This document shows, one piece after another, positions 44,895 to 59,270 of a stretch of DNA of 64,000 nt. The stretch covers positions 33,157,501 to 33,221,500 of the forward strand of contig OX485805.1 of the NCBI GenBank assembly GCA_950295325.1, in the 5' to 3' direction. Both the position numbers and the translations under genes were made by a program. Under the pieces are notes generated by a model. The model searched no databases. It had not been told where the DNA came from and saw nothing but the letters and a program-made list of their open reading frames with translations. The DNA comes from Polytrichum commune (lineage: Eukaryota > Streptophyta > Polytrichopsida > Polytrichales > Polytrichaceae). Positions within the stretch are counted from its first letter, which is position 1. Each line of letters starts with the position of its first letter.

Positions 44895-45272
44895 TGTTAG
44901 GTTGCATCGGCGACATTGTCCCATATGGGTTGTCAACGCTGGTCCTAACCCATACATATAAATAAAGGCATAAGGGGAGGAGCTAAACCTTTCTCTCCAT
45001 TGTATGCAATCTTTGTGTATTGTATTCTTAGTTCCTACGCTGATCTCTTTGCTTCTTCCTCTCAGTTCTCAATAATAACCTATTGGGAAATGAGAGAAGA
45101 GAGCAAAGAGATTAGCGTAGGAAGCAAGAACACAATACACTAAGATTGCATATAATGGAGAGAGTGATTAGCTCATCCGCTTATGCCTTTATTTATATGT
45201 ATGGATTAGGACCAACGTAGACAACTCATATGGGACAATGTCGCCGATGCAACCTAACACTATCTTCCAATA
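44882..45272. mobile_element. two LTRs tail to tail (44882-45074 plus, 45081-45272 minus)
   Basis: A plus LTR ending TCTCAATA is separated by only ATAACC from a minus LTR starting TATTGGG. ATAACC is the LTR-proximal end of a reversed primer-binding site, so the minus LTR was once a 5' LTR. Both carry many substitutions (GCGACATTG, ATATAATGG, ACTCATATGGG) and are old. Confidence 0.82.
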
Positions 45273-46252
45273 CATTTCCACTCCAAAATGATGCCAAATA
45301 ACTAGATAATCATCAAAAGGCCATAGCTAAGTATTTCGGAACTCAAATCACCTCAAACTAAATATAGAAGTGAGGAATCTCTCAAGTCATCACCTTTCCA
45401 CTCCAAAATGATGCCAAATATCAACAAAACCATCAAAAGGCCACAACTAAGTCTTTCGGAACTCAAATTATTTCAAACTAAGCATAGAAGTGAGGAGTTT
45501 TTCAAGTCAACATATTTTCACTCCAAAATGATGCCAAATGACTAGATAACCATCAAGAGAGTTAGACTAAGCCTCTTCAAATACGAATCGCCTCAAACTA
45601 ACATAGGAAGGAGGAATCTCTCAAGTTAGTACATTTTCACTCCAAAATAATGTCAAATAATTAGATAACCATTAAGAGAGTTGGACCAAGCCTCTTGGAA
45701 CTCGAATCGCCTCAAACTAAACATAGAAAGGAGGGATCTTTGAAATCAGCACATTTCCACTCCAAAACGATGCAAAATGAATAGATAACCATTAAAAGAG
45801 TTAGACTAAGCCTCTTGGAACATGAATCACCTCAAACTAAATATAGAAAGGAGGGATCTCTCAGCACATTTCTACTCCAAAACGATGTAAAATGACTAGA
45901 TAACCATCAAAATAGTTAAATTAAGTCTCTTGGAACACGAATCGCCTCAAACTAAGCATAGAAAGGAGGGATCTCTCAAGTCAGTACTTTTGCATTCAAT
46001 ATACGAATCGATCTACACCCAAGAGTTCAAAATGGAATGGACCTCTACCAAATGGATTCTCCAATGTAGTAACACTCCTAGAAGGTGCTCTACGTTGGTC
46101 CAAACCACCAAGAATGCTCAAAGGCGCTCCGAAGGTCTTCCAAAGCTTCAAAACTCCACCAAAAACCTCCAACCACCTCCGATCTGTTCCAGCCCTCTCC
46201 TAGCTACTCCTAAGTCGATCTCCTACCTCTAAAGCAAAGTGGGCCCATAACT
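45273..46252 (-). repeat. old reversed leader with type C 120-bp array
   Basis: About six degenerate units with CCACTCCAAAATGATGCC at 45279 and 45399 (period exactly 120) and CCTCAAACTAA. They resemble type A but are heavily mutated. A unique leader and GTGGGCCCATAAC end it. No gag or pol remains in this copy. Confidence 0.8.
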
Positions 46253-46447: not shown

Positions 46448-48500
46448 AGCAAATCAGAAACACGAAGTGTCACATACCTCTCCATAAGGAGTGTTTACAA
46501 CACCATGGGCACAAGGGGGACCCTAGAGTGACACCCATAACTTGTGGTGCCATAGGTAAGAAGGCCCAAGTGATTTTGGTGTGGATGAGGGTCGTGGGCA
46601 TCATGAACGCCTCTCATCCACAAAAATTGGGAGTCACAAAGATAATGCCATGAGCATTACATATCTTATGGCAACTGGATTCTAAAATGCTCAAGAACAA
46701 CCCAATTGGAGATGTGAGCTAGAAAATATGGCAATTTGAGGATGGCGTTGCCTAAGGACAACACCCAGCAGTGAAAGGGGCATTGTGGGGGAAAATAATG
46801 CCTAGGGAGTGGTGCCAATGACTGCCAAGGTTAGAACAATGATAACTCCTGTAATACTTGTCCGAATGGGGCAAGTGAGGAGTCTATCAACATCTATGCA
46901 AAGAGTAGTTGTCAATGAATTGGTTGCTTGATAAAATCGGGAATCAAATGATGAAGTTATGAAGGTTTGAAGTTGTTGGGGGGCTCTGGACCCAACAACT
47001 AAGGGAAAACGTCTACATGGTCCCAATTCTTAGGAGTGAGACAAAGGTTACTTGAGGGTGGGCTAGGGGCCTTACGTAAAGTCCTATAGGTTTATACGAG
47101 GAGGCATCTCTGCCAATCGACCCTACCCGAACAATGCAGCTTCCACCAAAGTTGGCCCAATGTGGAGGCGAACTTGCCAAGTATCCTTTGGGTTGATGTA
47201 GTGTTCCTCCAGCAACGCGATGATCAATTCAAAATTAGATGGATATGAATGGAAATATGCACCTAACCATTGGCTACCTACTAAAGGGAGAGTCTCGGAT
47301 GCATGTGTAGGAGGGTTTGGTAACCAAGCTATGATTTTGGAGGTTGGTATGGGGAGCTAACCATGGGTGTGTGTGTGGGATGTGCAAGGCTAGCGCTCGT
47401 GGCACTTGCTAGAGTTGCAAAACGGTGAAGATAAGTTAAGGCGAGCTAGCAAGAGTCGCTACACAAAGGCATATGTTTGGAGTGAGATGGTCATTCTCAT
47501 CCTTTGCCTTGCCCTTTATTGTATTTTTTCTCCTTGGTTCATACAATGTATATGGGATATCTCAACTCCCACTTTCCCACAAATCATATGGATTTATTCA
47601 AACCTTTTTCATTCTTATACCTCTACATTGATTACTCAATGACTACAAGCAACCTAGTGCCCTAACCTCAACAATGTGGTTTCTTTCTAATGCATTCTTG
47701 CAAGTTTAAAGTGATATAGTATACTATGTATGGGCATAATGCCTTGCTTACCACAATATGCAAATAGTTTTAAAGGAAGACTTCCCCAATTATTCATGAC
47801 ATTGTTAAAGTTGATCAAAAGTAGGACTTTGATTTCTATATTGTACATTTAGTATATTAATTTGATAGTGTTATTAACAATCATCAAATGATTTGACCAC
47901 AAAATTTGATGAAATGTGGTCATGTTTTTGTCTATGTTGCCTATACAATGCAAATTCATTTATGATTTACATATGTAGAAGGCGGGGTTCTAATAACTAT
48001 AGAACCGTAGAAGTCAGAATCATGGAAGTTGGTTGAGTCCATCTTGTAGAAAATAAGGGCAAGGTTATGGTAATGACCTATGGTTGTGACCATCACTTTC
48101 TAAAATCTCTCATTGGTTGAAAAATGAATAGCTTTCCCATTTTACTTCACACTAGGTCACTGTAAACAAAATTGACCATGTGAGAGGGACAAATGAAAAA
48201 GTAACATGAAATTCTACATCACCTTAAATCAACATTGTTTGGTGGTATGTAGAGTTTACGTTGAGACCACTTAAATGGGTGGTCTCAACAAGAATAAATA
48301 AGTAAAGTGACCGTCCAGTTTATAAAGTGTCCCGTGACGTACGATGGTAGAATGTAGTGTGATGGGGATTTCTCTTTGTCATGGCTTGTGGCCATGAGAA
48401 TCCTAAATCATGTTTTCTCACGGATTTTGGTCACTACTGTACTTGTTAACAGGTCCTACTAATAACATACAGCGTCTACTGACGAACTGCTGGCGGCACT
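46448..48500. other. about 2 kb without a recognisable gene
   Basis: AT-rich DNA with only short, uncharacteristic reading frames. No protein family, RNA gene or transposon end is recognised. The one clear structure is the stem-loop at 48260-48289. The right part must hold the upstream region of the receptor kinase gene; TATAAA occurs at 48321-48326 but its role is unknown. Confidence 0.5.
48260..48289. other. perfect inverted repeat, 11-bp arms
   Basis: GTTGAGACCAC (48260-48270) and GTGGTCTCAAC (48279-48289) are exact reverse complements around an 8-base loop. They lie about 700 bp before the receptor kinase start. The function is unknown. Confidence 0.7.
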
Positions 48501-48759
48501 GATGCCTGATATTGACAGCGCTTACAGACTTGGTTCGATGCTCGGCTCTTTCTCTTCCGCACTGCACTCTTCTCCCCCTCCCTGGGCAGCTCGAACGTTG
48601 CAGATTAAATTATCACTCGCACGCCACGTGAGGACGGCTCTCGCACGGCCATTATGAGGACGTCCACGATGGGTCTCCGCACCAGGGGGGCTACGGAGTG
48701 CCGACATTGTGAACACTCTCCACGGACGATGCAGCTGCCCAGCTAATTGAGGAGCCGCC

Positions 48760-48861
48760 ATGCCTGCTTGCTGTTGGCCATGGGCGGCGCTGCTTCTTCC
48801 AGGGCTCTCATCCGGAAAGCCGAGCCCTGGGACGACGAGGGATCACCAGCCAGCTGAATGA
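48760..48861 (+). CDS. upstream ORF 1 of the CR4-like gene (33 codons)
   Basis: ATG 48760 to TGA 48859-48861 encodes a peptide starting MPACCWPWAALLLPG, parallel to the start of the receptor ([15 protein letters not shown]). It sits in a strong context (GCCGCCATGC). If the transcript begins upstream, ribosomes would meet this ORF first, which could reduce receptor translation. Whether it is transcribed is not known. Confidence 0.45.
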   Translation: MPACCWPWAALLLPGLSSGKPSPGTTRDHQPAE

Positions 48862-48882
48862 AGAAGAGAAGAACTACATGCC

Positions 48883-48984
48883 ATGCCTGCATTGTGGTGG
48901 CCATGGGTGAAGCTACTGCTTCTAGTTCTAGGGACATGCAAAACACCGAGTTTTGCAGTACGGGGAGACGGGGCAGCTGAGTGA
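48883..48984 (+). CDS. upstream ORF 2 of the CR4-like gene (33 codons)
   Basis: ATG 48883 to TGA 48982-48984 encodes a second duplicate of the signal-peptide start (MPALWWPWVKLLLLVLG). It ends AAE-stop, much as ORF 1 ends PAE-stop, so both duplicates have the same length and end at the corresponding place. It is 17 bp from the main start codon. Confidence 0.45.
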   Translation: MPALWWPWVKLLLLVLGTCKTPSFAVRGDGAAE

Positions 48985-49001
48985 GAGGTGGAGCCACCGC
49001 C

Positions 49002-52000
49002 ATGCCTGCCCTGCCGTGGCCATGGGTGAGGCTGCTGCTTATGCTCAGTGTCTACCTTACACAAGCTCACGCGCTAGGCTCGATGAACTCAATGGCAGCT
49101 TCTTATGGAGAGAACGGGCAGGCCTTGTGCAGTTTACGTGCAGACAAAGCCAATGTTGTGACATGCTTTGGCAGTGATGTAGCGTCGGTGTACGGGGCGC
49201 CCCCACGACTGCCCTTACTGGGTCTTACAGGTGAACTCCTCTGTTTTGTTGCGATACCAGTAGCGCTAGTCAGACTTTTCAATAGAAAGACACGGCGATG
49301 AAGAATCTCGTTACGAGGTGCTTGGCTTGGGGTTTAGGTACCTAATTATAGTCTTGGTGCCAAGAGGCCACACGGTCTTAGATCCTCTTGATTTTGCGCA
49401 CCGCAGTGATGTAAACCTGTTTGACACACACTTGACGATCAGAAACCACGGCATCCCATGTTTTACATACACATGTGGACATGTTTTCCTACTTTACAGG
49501 GGGCGACGGCTTTGTGTGTGGACTCTCAATGGGGGTGCGTCAGCCGTACTGCTGGGGCAACAACATTTATGTAGAAGCTGGCGTACCTGCAGTGGGCGAC
49601 CGCCATTATGCTGCGTTGAGTGCTGGGGACAATCACTTGTGTGCATTACGCCAATCTTCTAGCTATGTCGCAGGTGGGCCAGCAGTGGATTGCTGGGGCT
49701 ACAATATGACTGGCTCCTTTGTAAATGCGCCACTTCTGTCCATCACTTCTGGCTCCTTCTTCAGCTGTGGGCTGTTTGCAGCCAATTCGACACCCGTGTG
49801 CTGGGGTGATGAGACAGGAAGCGGCGCCATCAGCACAGCTCCCACGCTGAAGGCATTCGATTCAATCATTGCTGGCGGTTACCATGTTTGTGGAATACTT
49901 TTAAAGAGTCAGGACACATTCTGCTGGGGCCGCTCGCTGGATGCTCAAGCGGGAGTGCCTAAGGGAGCCATCTTCAGCTCTCTGGTGGCGGGGAAGTTCT
50001 CAACCTGTGGGCTACGAGCGGACAGTCATTTCCCGCTGTGTTGGGGTCTCACGCTACCCAACAATACACCCATGCCCACGAATGTGGGCTTCTCCATTCT
50101 GGTAGCCGGCGATTACTTCATTTGTGGCCTTCCAGAGCTCACATCGCAGCCACAGTGCTGGGGCTCAGGGTATCCTGTGGTGCTGGCGGGGGGCGTGGCC
50201 CCTGGCATGTGCAGCTCGCAGGCCTGCTTGCCCGGCACCTACAGTCTCAGTCCGGAGGCTGTCAAGGCGCTGTCCGCAAGTGGGGCGGCTCTTTGCTCAA
50301 ACCCCACCGACAATGTGTGTGTCACCTGCAGTGTGAGCTGCCCAGCAGGCATGGTGCCGTCTGCGCCATGCACCTCTACTGCAGATCGCCAGTGCAGCTA
50401 CAACTGCTCCCAGTGCCACAACAACACCAGTTGCTCAGCGGCCTGCTATTCACCAAAGGGACGTACCGAATCCATACAAGTCCCCATTATTATTGGAGAG
50501 CTTGTGATGGCTGTTGTGGTCATTGGCATTCTGCTGATGGTGGCATTTTTCTGTGTGCGGAGAAAACTCACAAATGTTGCTAAACTGGACAATGCGAAAG
50601 GCAGCAAAGCAGCTCACGAAATGGTTTCCAAAAAGAGTTCCTTTCGATCATTCCATAAGGTAAAAGTTCAGGATTCGGTTGAGAGAAAGGTGCATGCACG
50701 CTTGTTCAGCTACAAGGAACTGAATGACGCGACAGGAGGATTCTCAGAAGACAGCGAGATTGGTCGGGGTAGCTTCTCATGTGTGTACAAGGGTGTTCTC
50801 AGTGATGGTCATCTAGTCGCCGTGAAGGTAAGCTTCTGAAGGAACGCACCGAATGATTTGCATGTCACCCTGACTCTTCGTAGAAGACACCCGATTTTTT
50901 TCTTCCAACATCTTTGTTCAGAGTTCCAGATTTTAATGCACTGTCCTACGAGTTGGCAAAGTTGAAGCAGGTTCGACTTTCGCTTCCAGCACTGTAGTTT
51001 GTGTACAGTCCCACTAGGTCTACTGGATAAAATCTTAGAGATTGAACGTAGCCATCCTGCTTGCTTGCTCCTCTCTTTAGAACGTTCTTTTCCTTGATAA
51101 GAGTGGTCGATACTGTGCTCATCAAATTTATTGGATGTTCAATATAACAGCGGCCAGCACCTCCTGCCCCTAAACATCAGTCTTGCAACTCCAAGGACTT
51201 CAACAATGAGATTGACTTATTGTCCCGTCTCAACCATGCCCACCTGCTCAACCTAATAGGCTACTGCAACGAAGGAGGAGAGAGACTCCTGGTATTTGAG
51301 TACATGGAAATGGGCACATTATATGAACACCTCCATGGGCCACAGCTAAACCCAGAGCTTACCTGGGTGACAAGGGTGAAGATTGCAGTGCAAGTTGCAC
51401 GCGGTCTTGAGTATTTGCATGGTTATGCCTGTCCGCCAGTCATTCACCGGGACATTAAGTCTCCAAATATTTTGCTTGATGACGAGTGGAATGCAAGGGT
51501 GGCAGACTTTGGACTCTCGTTATTGGGACCTTCCGACAGCAGCACACCCCTCTCCGAGCTCCCTGCAGGCACTCTTGGGTACTTGGATCCAGAGTATTAC
51601 AGGCTTCACTACCTTACCACAAAGAGCGATGTATACAGCTTCGGTGTGCTTCTACTTGAGATTCTTGCAGGAAGGAAGGTCACAGACGAGGAATTTGAGA
51701 ATGGAAACATTGTAGAATGGGCAGTGCCAGTCATTAAAAAGGGTGAGATATTGTCCATTCTGGACCCCAGATTAGACCATCCAGCGGAACCCGAGGGTTT
51801 GCTTCGAATAGCACGGGTGGCTGCCCGATGTGTGAGGATGCGGGGCAAGGACCGGCCTTCCATGGACAGGGTGACCACCTCGCTGGAGCGGTCGCTTGCA
51901 CTTTTAATGGGCACACCGTCGGATGGGCAATTGATACTGCCCTCGGAAGTGGTGCTGGGAAGCAGTAGGCTACATCGAAAGTCGTCTCGGAGTAAGTCAT

Positions 52001-52257
52001 CGCACAAGTCGTCTCACTCGCGGCTGTCATCGGCTCTGACGGCGGATAGCTCGTGGCAGGCCATGGAGGCGGAGCATCAATCGATCGCGTCCTCCAGGAG
52101 GCAGCGCAGGTGGCCGTCCGAGTCGGAAGACGAAGGGGCGGAGGACACCCGATTGACGGTCATCATGTCGCCTCCCGAGACGAAGGCTCATGAATTGCTG
52201 AGCAGGAAGAACTCCGAGATTGCTCCTGCTTCTCCTCTCAATGTTGCAGCCGACTAG
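49002..52257 (+). CDS. CR4: CRINKLY4-like receptor kinase (three exons, 887 aa)
   Basis: Coding exons 49002-49230, 49500-50827 and 51151-52257, joined by GT-AG introns of 269 and 323 bp, give 887 residues. ATG 49002 has a strong context (GCCACCGCCATGC) and opens a signal peptide ([15 protein letters not shown]...AHA). The mature part has the ALGSM.S.A.SYGE start and seven crinkly (RCC1-like) repeats with CWG motifs. Next come a TNFR-like Cys-rich segment ([12 protein letters not shown] to CSAAC), one transmembrane helix near 404-430, and a Ser/Thr kinase. The kinase has [12 protein letters not shown], the VAVK lysine 519, HRDIKSPN with Asp620, DFG with Asp638, and [11 protein letters not shown]. 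All catalytic residues are present. CR4/ACR4 proteins sit at the plasma membrane and control cell fate and oriented division. A basic Ser-rich stretch, [15 protein letters not shown], lies in the tail. Confidence 0.93.
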
Positions 52258-53291: not shown

Positions 53292-56200
53292 TCATTCTGA
53301 ACCAAGGGGAGCTGGAGGCCATGGAAGGCCTAAGACCTTAGGCACCTTCTCCTTCACCTGCTGAGAGGCTTGCTTGGATTTTATTGGTTGACCAATGGAA
53401 GGTTGTTTTTTCAAATGTTTCAAGTTCCAAAGACTCTGTATATGCTCCTCCTTGTCTTCTCCTTCTGCATTAGTAGGACTAGCACCTGCCTCTTTTTCAG
53501 GAACTCTAGCCTCTGATACTGCCACAATATGACTCCCCTCTGTTAAAGTCACTTTCACACCATTGTCATCTTTATTCCTGTAACCCTCTGATGTAGGTGA
53601 TTCTGCTCCCATCTCTTCTGCAACCGAAGTCTCTTGTTTCATTGTTATCTTTGTTGGAGAAGTATCTTCCCCAACCCCAGGTGGTCCCAGTTCCTTGTCA
53701 ACAACCATGGGGCTAGCCTCTTCTAGCTTTGTTGCCTCTTCAGTTGGGTGCACCTGGAGAAGAGTCACATCAACCTCCTGTGCAGGTGCCCCCCCGTCCA
53801 TGTGGGGTGCCTTCTCTTCCTTATATGGCGTAGTTTCATGCTCCAATGATGTGTCTAGTGGGGTCTCCTGTGTGGGAGCAACCTCTCTCTCAACCTCGGT
53901 AGGACCCAAATAGTCCTTCTCTGCACCTCTGTAGCCAACCTCTTCTTCCCTCATTTCCTCAAGGAGAGCCTCTTCAGTTGATTCTGCATGTGCTTCTTTC
54001 TCCATATGGGGTGTTGCCTCCATTGTCTTCTCTTGAACGGGGTTGTCAAGCTCTGTAGTTGCCTCTGTTGGCTCCTTGATAAGATTAACCTCCCCCCCAG
54101 CATCAGGTGCCCATGATTCGTCTTTAGCAACTGTTGGGACAACATCTGCTTCCTTTGATTCCTTGTCAGCTGGGCTCTCCTCAACGAAGTATGCAGGTGC
54201 GCCGCCTTCCTCCACTCTGACAGTTGCTTCTGCTGCCTTCTCCACAATGAGAGGCTGTGGCTTCACTGCTGCCTCGTTTGAATGGTTCTCCAAAGGAAGA
54301 GCCTTTTGTTCAACTTCAAGTACGTCCAATCCCTTGTCTGCATGTTCTTTGTGCTTAGCTGCTTCCTCAATGGAGACGTTTCCAAGAGAAACCAACTCTT
54401 GTGGTTGCACTCCCAGCAGAACATAGCCTTCTCCATCACCTTCCACATCCCGTGTTTCAATATCGTCAGATTGATTGCTCCCAGAAGACCTTACCAGGTC
54501 TGCTTCCTCATCTGAATTTGCACCACTTAGTGGAGCATTTGCACGTCTTTGTAGTTCTTGTATGGGGCCCTTGTATTTCTCTGCTTGCATGACACTACAT
54601 GTTTAGAATGGTGACATTAATTTATTTTTTCATAGAGGTGCACGTTCTTCATTCATTTGCCATTAACCATTTACAGTGAGTCAGTTTCAAGCGTATGGAA
54701 ATGCATAGAACTGTATACTTAATAGCACTGATCAAATGTATTAAGAAGGAACCAGAAACTTTAGAAGCCATTAAAATCAAACGCTGAGGAAAGTCTTGTA
54801 AATGCCAATACACATTTCTGACAAATTTGAAATTCTTGTGCTTCATTCCAGGTTTCAAGTTCAAATTTTGTCAATTTGTTGGTTGAAAATCAATAGGAGT
54901 CTAACAATCCATGAAATTTAGATGGATGGACATGAAGGAATTATGGAATTCAAGGTTCACCCTCCTTCATTTCCTGCATTAGGACAGAGATTAGGAAGTT
55001 GAAACCGGCAAATTTGATATATATATTAAAACTAGGAAAGCAAACCAAACAAGAGATCCCCCTAAGAACCAACAAGACTTTGAGAGCATCATGCAAGCAG
55101 AGATTGATCAAACATACCAGGATCTCTTGTGCTGGATGCGGGCAGGTCAGTCAATTCTGACAAAGTGTTTCGTAATGGCTCTCTTGACAGAAGCTCCCAC
55201 TTGTCACCAAAATCAGCACCCCCATCTGAATGGTTTATTAGATCTGTCTTACTAGAGGTAGCAGGAACCAGTGATGTTCTGTTCTCCACCCGAGTTGGAA
55301 GACTAACACTTGGTGCAAGATGCCTTGAGTATTTCTCAGAAGGGAAATCAGTTGTTCTTATTTTGCTTGGGGTTGCAGAAATAGATACAGATCTGTCTGC
55401 AATTGTGTACTTTGGTTTCTGTACCACAGGAAGAGCCACACTATTGTATTGTCTCGATACATCAACTGTGGGAGTAACAGCATCAGATATCTGAATGGTT
55501 GAAGTAGGAACTAATAAGGACCTGTCTTCCACTTGAGAAACAGATAGAGGAAGGCTAGAAATGCTTGCTGAGTTCCTCAACTCGTTGTGGCTGGTGCCCT
55601 CAAGCCTCTTCTTTGAACCAACACCACTCTGTCTTGATTCTTCCAGGGGGACGTGATTACTGCTATCCTGAGCAGGAAAGAGGTCATCATCACTATTAGG
55701 GTCATAAAACCTGGGTTTTGGGGGAGTAGCTGAAGGTTGATCATAACCAGCTCTGCCTGCATCGACATTGAATTTTGGGTAATTAGGTAGAAGAGTTCCT
55801 GATGGTCGGATAGGAGAGGTTAGGTAGTCTTGCAGATCCTCAGAAGCACTATTGTAAAGAGTATCAGGGCTGTGGCCTCCACTGGAGAATGAGCGAGATG
55901 GACTTGGGTGTGCTGTGTTGTATGCGCTTAGCAACTCGGAGGTCGACCGGGATGGCCCTAGCAACATGTGACCTGACTGAGATGCAACCTCTTGCTGGTT
56001 GAACATGACATTTGTGTCGATGTCACCGTCCTCATCCTCATTCTTCAAGGGAGATTTCTCTGGTACATCTTGGAATTCTTCTTTCTGCAAGAAAAATTTT
56101 ATATTTTATAAGAACCGATTTTGTTAAGTTCATGAATTTCTCTTTTTCGGTGTCACAAAGTCACCAGCTCTGTTATACACATAAGCTATAAAGAAACAAA

Positions 56201-58779: not shown

Positions 58780-59270
58780 ATGCGGGAGGTAAGAAGAAGT
58801 GGTGAAGAGGGAGAAGAGGGAGATGCTGGGGTGAGGCAGGCAGGAGGGAGGGAGGGGGGGAGGGAGGGCCGGCAGGCAGGCTGGCCCGCGACGACAAGGT
58901 CAGAGTCACAGCTTGCGGCGGCTGCTGCTGCTGCTTTCCTCTTTCGTCACTTAAGTTACCTTCTTATTTACTACATACTCACTCTCACCTCCTTTACTTG
59001 GTCTTCTCTTCTTCACTTTCCCGTGGGCTCCCCCGGCCGGCCCGCCTGCCCGCCGCCCACGCCGCCCCTCCCTCCCTCCCTCCCTCCCTCCGATCCCTCC
59101 CTCCCTCCCGCCGATCCCTCCGATCCCTCGCTCGGCCTAATTTGGTCGTCCTGCTCCCGCCTGCAGCCTGGCCCTCCATCGGCGTCACTCCCCCTTTTTC
59201 ATTGTCTACCTGCTTGCTCTGCTCACTTATTTAACTTCTACCCATCGCCTGCACTGCGCACGCACATCAT
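58780..59270. repeat. polypurine and (CCCT)n low-complexity block, G-quadruplex motif
   Basis: Five G-runs at 58846-58868 separated by single A residues form a clear G-quadruplex motif on the plus strand. From about 59070 to 59135 CCTCCCTCC repeats give the complementary kind of tract, so the two can also pair imperfectly. The open frames across this block are rich in Pro/Leu/Ser or Gly/Arg and are composition artefacts. The block lies upstream of the minus-strand gene. Confidence 0.65.

Follow-up and report, generated by a model that had tools for sequence, protein, structure and literature searches.

Triplication of the start of a CR4 receptor kinase gene in Polytrichum commune, and upstream open reading frames that may dampen its translation

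How does a receptor gene come to be preceded by short open reading frames that begin as the receptor itself begins, and what might such frames do? The question is raised by a 64-kb window from Polytrichum commune, i.e., the whole stretch of DNA analyzed here, in which a receptor kinase gene follows two such upstream open reading frames (uORFs). The original prediction held that the start region of the receptor had been triplicated by tandem duplication, that coding DNA had thereby become uORFs, and that these could repress translation, act as alternative starts by splicing, or encode secreted peptides.

The receptor had been taken to be CR4, and its kinase domain and ectodomain matches confirm this. 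Three plus-strand exons, separated by two introns, join in frame to encode 887 amino acids: exon 1 (49002..49230) contains the signal peptide and mature N-terminus, exon 2 (49500..50827) the crinkly repeats, cysteine-rich region, transmembrane segment and start of the kinase, and exon 3 (51151..52257) the remaining kinase and C-terminus. The kinase domain is of the active type and matches Pfam PK_Tyr_Ser-Thr (E = 2.5e-42). Over its whole length the ectodomain aligns with PDB entry 7a0k_A (annotated as 'Predicted protein'; E = 7e-207, 302/372 identical), which we take to be the CR4 ectodomain of Physcomitrium patens; the match to ACR4 (PDB 7a0j) is weaker (E = 9.1e-77) and covers the propeller. 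The cysteine-rich region aligns with 7a0k_A and matches Pfam TNFR_c6 with E = 3.2e-4, at a score of 21.5 bits that lies under the cut-off of 29.4. The pattern C-X9-11-CWG occurs five times, as counted by pattern, where the family has seven repeats of the form C(X10)CWG. Judged by hydropathy only, the protein has a signal peptide, with an N-terminal hydrophobic stretch near residue 12, and a single transmembrane segment (19-residue maximum of 3.19 at residue 411). The match to 7a0k_A starts at residue 25 (LGSM...), where the signal peptide should end, and this supports 49002 as the true start. An in-frame start at 49041, right after the repeated block described below, is possible, but lies about 11 residues before LGSM and would probably leave a short signal peptide.

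The predicted triplication of the start region was borne out. A 42-nt block composed of GCC, an ATG and 12 further codons is present in three direct-orientation copies on the plus strand, at 48757-48798 (copy 1), 48880-48921 (copy 2) and 48999-49040 (copy 3), the last of which opens CR4; successive blocks are spaced by 123 and 119 nt. Identities are 33/42 between copies 1 and 2, 31/42 between copies 1 and 3, and 36/42 between copies 2 and 3, and for each pair none of 300 dinucleotide shuffles gave a local alignment score as high. This repeat at the CR4 start is real, and its occurrence in triplicate is far beyond chance. A degenerate pattern built from copies 2 and 3 found only those two sites in the window with at most three mismatches, a limit beyond which copy 1 lies, and no site in any of 100 shuffles. 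Short-word blastn of 48300-49130 against the window returned only the copies of the start block and an insignificant 14-mer at 59002-59015. No fourth copy was detected in the 127 nt that precede copy 1 (175, 112 and 259 of 300 shuffles were as good). An assembly error behind the triplication was rejected, since copies that differ by 14-26% are probably too divergent for a collapsed or repeated read.

Each of the two upstream copies begins a uORF of 33 codons, with the receptor-like first residues that had been described: uORF1 (48760..48861, plus strand, MPACCWPWAALLLPGLSSGKPSPGTTRDHQPAE) and uORF2 (48883..48984, plus strand, MPALWWPWVKLLLLVLGTCKTPSFAVRGDGAAE). They end at the same relative point, as anticipated, with a TGA stop 99 nt past the ATG in both. 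The first ATG of all three copies stands in GCCATGCC, so that both uORF starts agree with the main start at every position between -3 and +5 and have an initiation-competent context. In-frame fusion of the uORFs was rejected: uORF1 and uORF2, though in a common frame, are parted by a stop, and neither is in frame with the main ORF. uORF1 and uORF2 lie 21 nt apart, and a further 17 nt separate uORF2 from the main ATG.

While both uORFs exist, the picture of a leader with two uORFs proved incomplete. There are 18 ATGs from 48300 to the main start, ten of them from 48640 on; besides the uORF starts they are located at 48780, 48858, 48878, 48903 and 48936, with 11 more in 48300-48760. None of the ORFs that begin at these 18 sites extends beyond the main start. 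The ATG at 48858 opens a 40-codon ORF (48858..48980, plus strand), absent from the original prediction, that overlaps the stop of uORF1 and most of uORF2. Furthermore, each repeat contains a second ATG 20 nt on from the first (48780, 48903 and 49022), within a TGGCCATGGG that all three copies share without change, and in a frame different from that of the first ATG. Positions -3 and +4 of these second ATGs are both G, by the usual rule a better start context than that of the first ATGs. On the minus strand, an 86-codon antisense ORF (48743-49003) spans all of copies 1 and 2 and an end of the third, probably by chance.

We then asked how far the kinship between the copies extends. Each repeat unit was divided into a leader (from CAGCT to the core), the 42-nt core and a tail, with limits set after the alignment was seen. 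The leader of copy 2 (CAGCTGAATGA..., 48851..48879, plus strand) contains the uORF1 stop and the ATG at 48858, and that of copy 3 (CAGCTGAGTGA..., 48974..48998, plus strand) contains the uORF2 stop. The leaders of copies 1 and 3 and of copies 2 and 3 are alike (2/1000 and 6/1000 shuffles as good), with a less clear likeness between copies 1 and 2 (174/1000). The tail of copy 1 (48799..48850, plus strand) shows no recognisable kinship with the receptor, and neither does that of copy 2 (48922..48973, plus strand), both aligning with it no better than shuffles do (295/1000 and 703/1000; 260/300 and 45/300 as good); the two tails are weakly similar to each other (14/1000 and 26/300). When tails were simulated at core-level divergence, with an assumed indel rate of 6% per site, none of 2000 scored as low as observed for any of the three pairs. 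Fisher tests of core against tail on gapped identities, a cruder comparison that flatters the tails, gave 0.005 for copies 2 and 3 but were weaker for the two pairs with copy 1, at 0.07 and 0.08.

As aligned, homology with the receptor comprises the 13 codons, being significant only to 49040, and a weak 25-nt leader; the tails of about 52 nt, which make up most of the remaining uORF sequence, appear unlike the receptor. The claim that duplicated coding DNA became uORFs is demonstrated for 39 nt, i.e., 13 codons, while the other uORF sequence bears no resemblance to the receptor. A plain tandem duplication of the whole unit, of about 120 nt, should yield uniform divergence along it, with tails matching as well as cores, yet they do not. 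Either copying was confined to the leader and core, after which a unit of copy plus tail underwent doubling, or it took in a longer unit of which the core alone has survived.

The sharp edge of the core also bears on whether the likeness of the cores reflects recent common origin. Selection at the nucleotide level, on paired ATG contexts or a DNA or RNA element, could have held the 42-nt core at three sites, and would fit the fall from 31-36/42 identity in the cores to chance level in the tails. Clustering is also seen among the 12 columns that vary within the core, seven of which form one run (0.12% of permutations); this leaves GCCATGCCTGC and TGGCCATGGG invariant, each surrounding an ATG, a pattern noticed post hoc. 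Copying of leader and core alone, for example by templated filler insertion, would however give the same sharp edge, and the RNA folding is ordinary: six folds had z-scores from -0.17 to +1.44, none being unusually stable compared to shuffles, and RNA structure was rejected as a conserved feature. We regard such selection as an unlikely explanation of the three cores. Known RNA families gave no match anywhere in the window. The tail of copy 1 contains a perfect 9-bp inverted repeat (48799-48830, loop of 14) and that of copy 2 a perfect 8-bp one (48937-48957, loop of 5); the rate seen across the window predicts approximately 0.24 eight-bp inverted repeats per 371 nt.

Selection on the uORF peptides received no significant support from codon positions, pN/pS, hydropathy or simulation. 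It is highly improbable that the peptides act themselves, whether inside the ribosome tunnel, as nascent arrest peptides, or after secretion. In favor of such activity, pN was below pS in all three core comparisons (0.20/0.34, 0.26/0.36 and 0.10/0.31), values that rest on at most 11 differences (3 to 3.5 synonymous, 3 to 7.5 non-synonymous), and the N-terminus of uORF2 is hydrophobic, with an 8-residue mean of 2.94 that 3 of 141 background ORFs reach. Against it, besides these tiny counts, the variable columns are spread over the codon positions as 3, 4 and 5; the hydropathy of uORF1 is ordinary (18/141 background ORFs reach the same); the C-terminal 20 residues differ between uORF1 and uORF2; and a Pfam search of the two peptides returned no match. 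In addition, the length of the ribosome tunnel is about that of a 33-residue chain, which barely emerges from it, and this makes co-translational export doubtful. The suggestion that the uORFs encode secreted peptides is, on these grounds, doubtful. Simulated loss of constraint at 20% divergence kept the ATG in 50% of cases, and the ATG with the whole frame in 25%.

Whether the upstream copies matter depends on where the mRNA begins and how it is spliced. Plant core promoter elements are reported to include Y patches and TATA boxes (PMC3965062). Between 47800 and 49000, TATA[A/T]A is matched once, at 48321, a site that precedes both uORFs, as do the long pyrimidine runs at 48546 and 48567; because these elements lie ahead of the copies, a transcription start upstream of the uORFs is weakly favored. 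With respect to splicing, the two uORFs contain eight GT dinucleotides; splicing from two of these, after 48772 and after 48949, would fuse a uORF start to exon 2 without a shift of frame. Alternative starts by splicing could thus be formed on paper, but both in-frame donors have only 3/9 bases of the donor consensus, against 7/9 and 8/9 for the gene's own donors. The leader also contains acceptor-like AGs, e.g., before 48926 and 48959, and leaves room for a 5' UTR intron that would excise one or both upstream ATGs (uATGs).

These features frame the main rival to a role in translation, namely that the upstream copies are relics without effect, either lying untranscribed in the promoter or being spliced out, so that the mRNA starts past the uORF2 ATG or skips it. 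This is a real though minority possibility in our judgment. The ten ATGs from 48640 on would be a heavy burden for an expressed gene, retention of the uORFs requires no selection given the simulated survival of ATG and frame, and the acceptor-like AGs point the same way; conversely, no TATA-like site lies between the copies and the gene, and the cores are far better preserved than the intervening tails.

The explanation we prefer, to which we would give roughly even odds, is an old local duplication of the CR4 start whose upstream copies, if transcribed, reduce translation whatever their peptide sequence. The CR4 start, i.e., about 25 nt of leader and the first 13 codons, would have been duplicated locally so as to place two copies upstream, with the last still serving as the start of CR4 and both upstream copies retaining an ATG in the immediate context of the real start, hence the 33-codon uORFs. 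If the mRNA starts upstream of 48760, scanning ribosomes would use the uATGs about as readily as the main ATG, and CR4 output would then be low, set by leaky scanning and independent of the peptides. Since just 21 and 17 nt between frames are available for re-initiation, strong dampening through leaky scanning is expected if the leader is transcribed. The repeat, the ORFs, the matching ATG contexts and the CR4 gene are established by the sequence analysis; we infer the presence of the uORFs in the mRNA, their use by ribosomes and the resulting repression; translational repression, the first of the predicted functions, is plausible if the region is transcribed. Counting against it, transcription might begin between the uORFs and the gene, and the acceptor-like AGs would permit a 5' UTR intron that removes the uATGs.

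A more specific proposal, which we consider quite unlikely, is that the uATGs, with the immediate context of the true start and a matching signal-peptide N-terminus, serve as decoys that titrate initiation, so that CR4 dose is set by leaky scanning and follows any change in initiation stringency. What selection preserves would then be the decoy start sites, and not the peptides. Selection of this kind would account for the survival of the 42-nt cores while the tails were lost.

According to a published 478-species analysis, most uORFs regulate translation, and conserved-peptide uORFs (CPuORFs) amount to less than 1% as estimated in human and fly (PMC7889888). Like ordinary, sequence-independent plant uORFs, those of P. 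commune are short tandem ORFs that have an initiation-competent ATG and end before the main start; they differ in having their first 13 codons copied from the start of the main ORF, and they are known from genomic sequence alone. They resemble CPuORFs in being short uORFs upstream of a regulatory gene, whereas the CPuORF peptide is conserved across species and the P. commune locus bears no significant mark of selection on the peptide. A pattern scan and a protein scan of viral contigs gave no related sequence, and a protein scan of a set of genome contigs yielded 23 pattern matches, none of them confirmed; plant genomes are outside both collections by design, and these results carry no information about conservation. 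The gene itself shares with CRINKLY4 receptor kinases (moss CR4, 7a0k; ACR4, 7a0j) the signal peptide, transmembrane segment and kinase, and appears to share the crinkly repeats and cysteine-rich region; its triplicated start goes unmentioned in the accessible text of the CR4 phylogeny paper (PMC4617170), where neither uORF nor UTR appears. In our literature searches we met neither a CR4 uORF nor a uORF that stems from the start of its own main ORF, which is not proof of absence.

uORFs are common and their origin is less clear; here the uORF starts are visibly copied from the main ORF start and, as such, arrived with a working ATG context. If transcribed, the locus would be a natural test of whether the dose of a receptor can be set by a series of identical start contexts. 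CR4 dosage could matter, since CR4 is reported to be a likely receptor for CLE peptides during the development of moss gametophores (PMC11296525).

Several features of the surrounding window were also recorded. Adjoining CR4, an uninterrupted acidic ORF of 432 codons occupies 53292-54590 on the minus strand, and another open frame lies at 55089-56105; neither has a Pfam match. Positions 1-45000 contain many nested or broken copia-type elements and 120-nt tandem arrays at several sites; one ORF there, at 2190, has Pfam matches to the gag, integrase and reverse transcriptase of copia. Kinship of the start block with these satellite arrays of the retrotransposon-rich half was rejected: the period is equal, no sequence match was found, and we take the agreement as coincidence. 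Just outside the retrotransposon block, at 45268-45991, lies a further tandem array of 120-nt period that has diverged more (80% matches).
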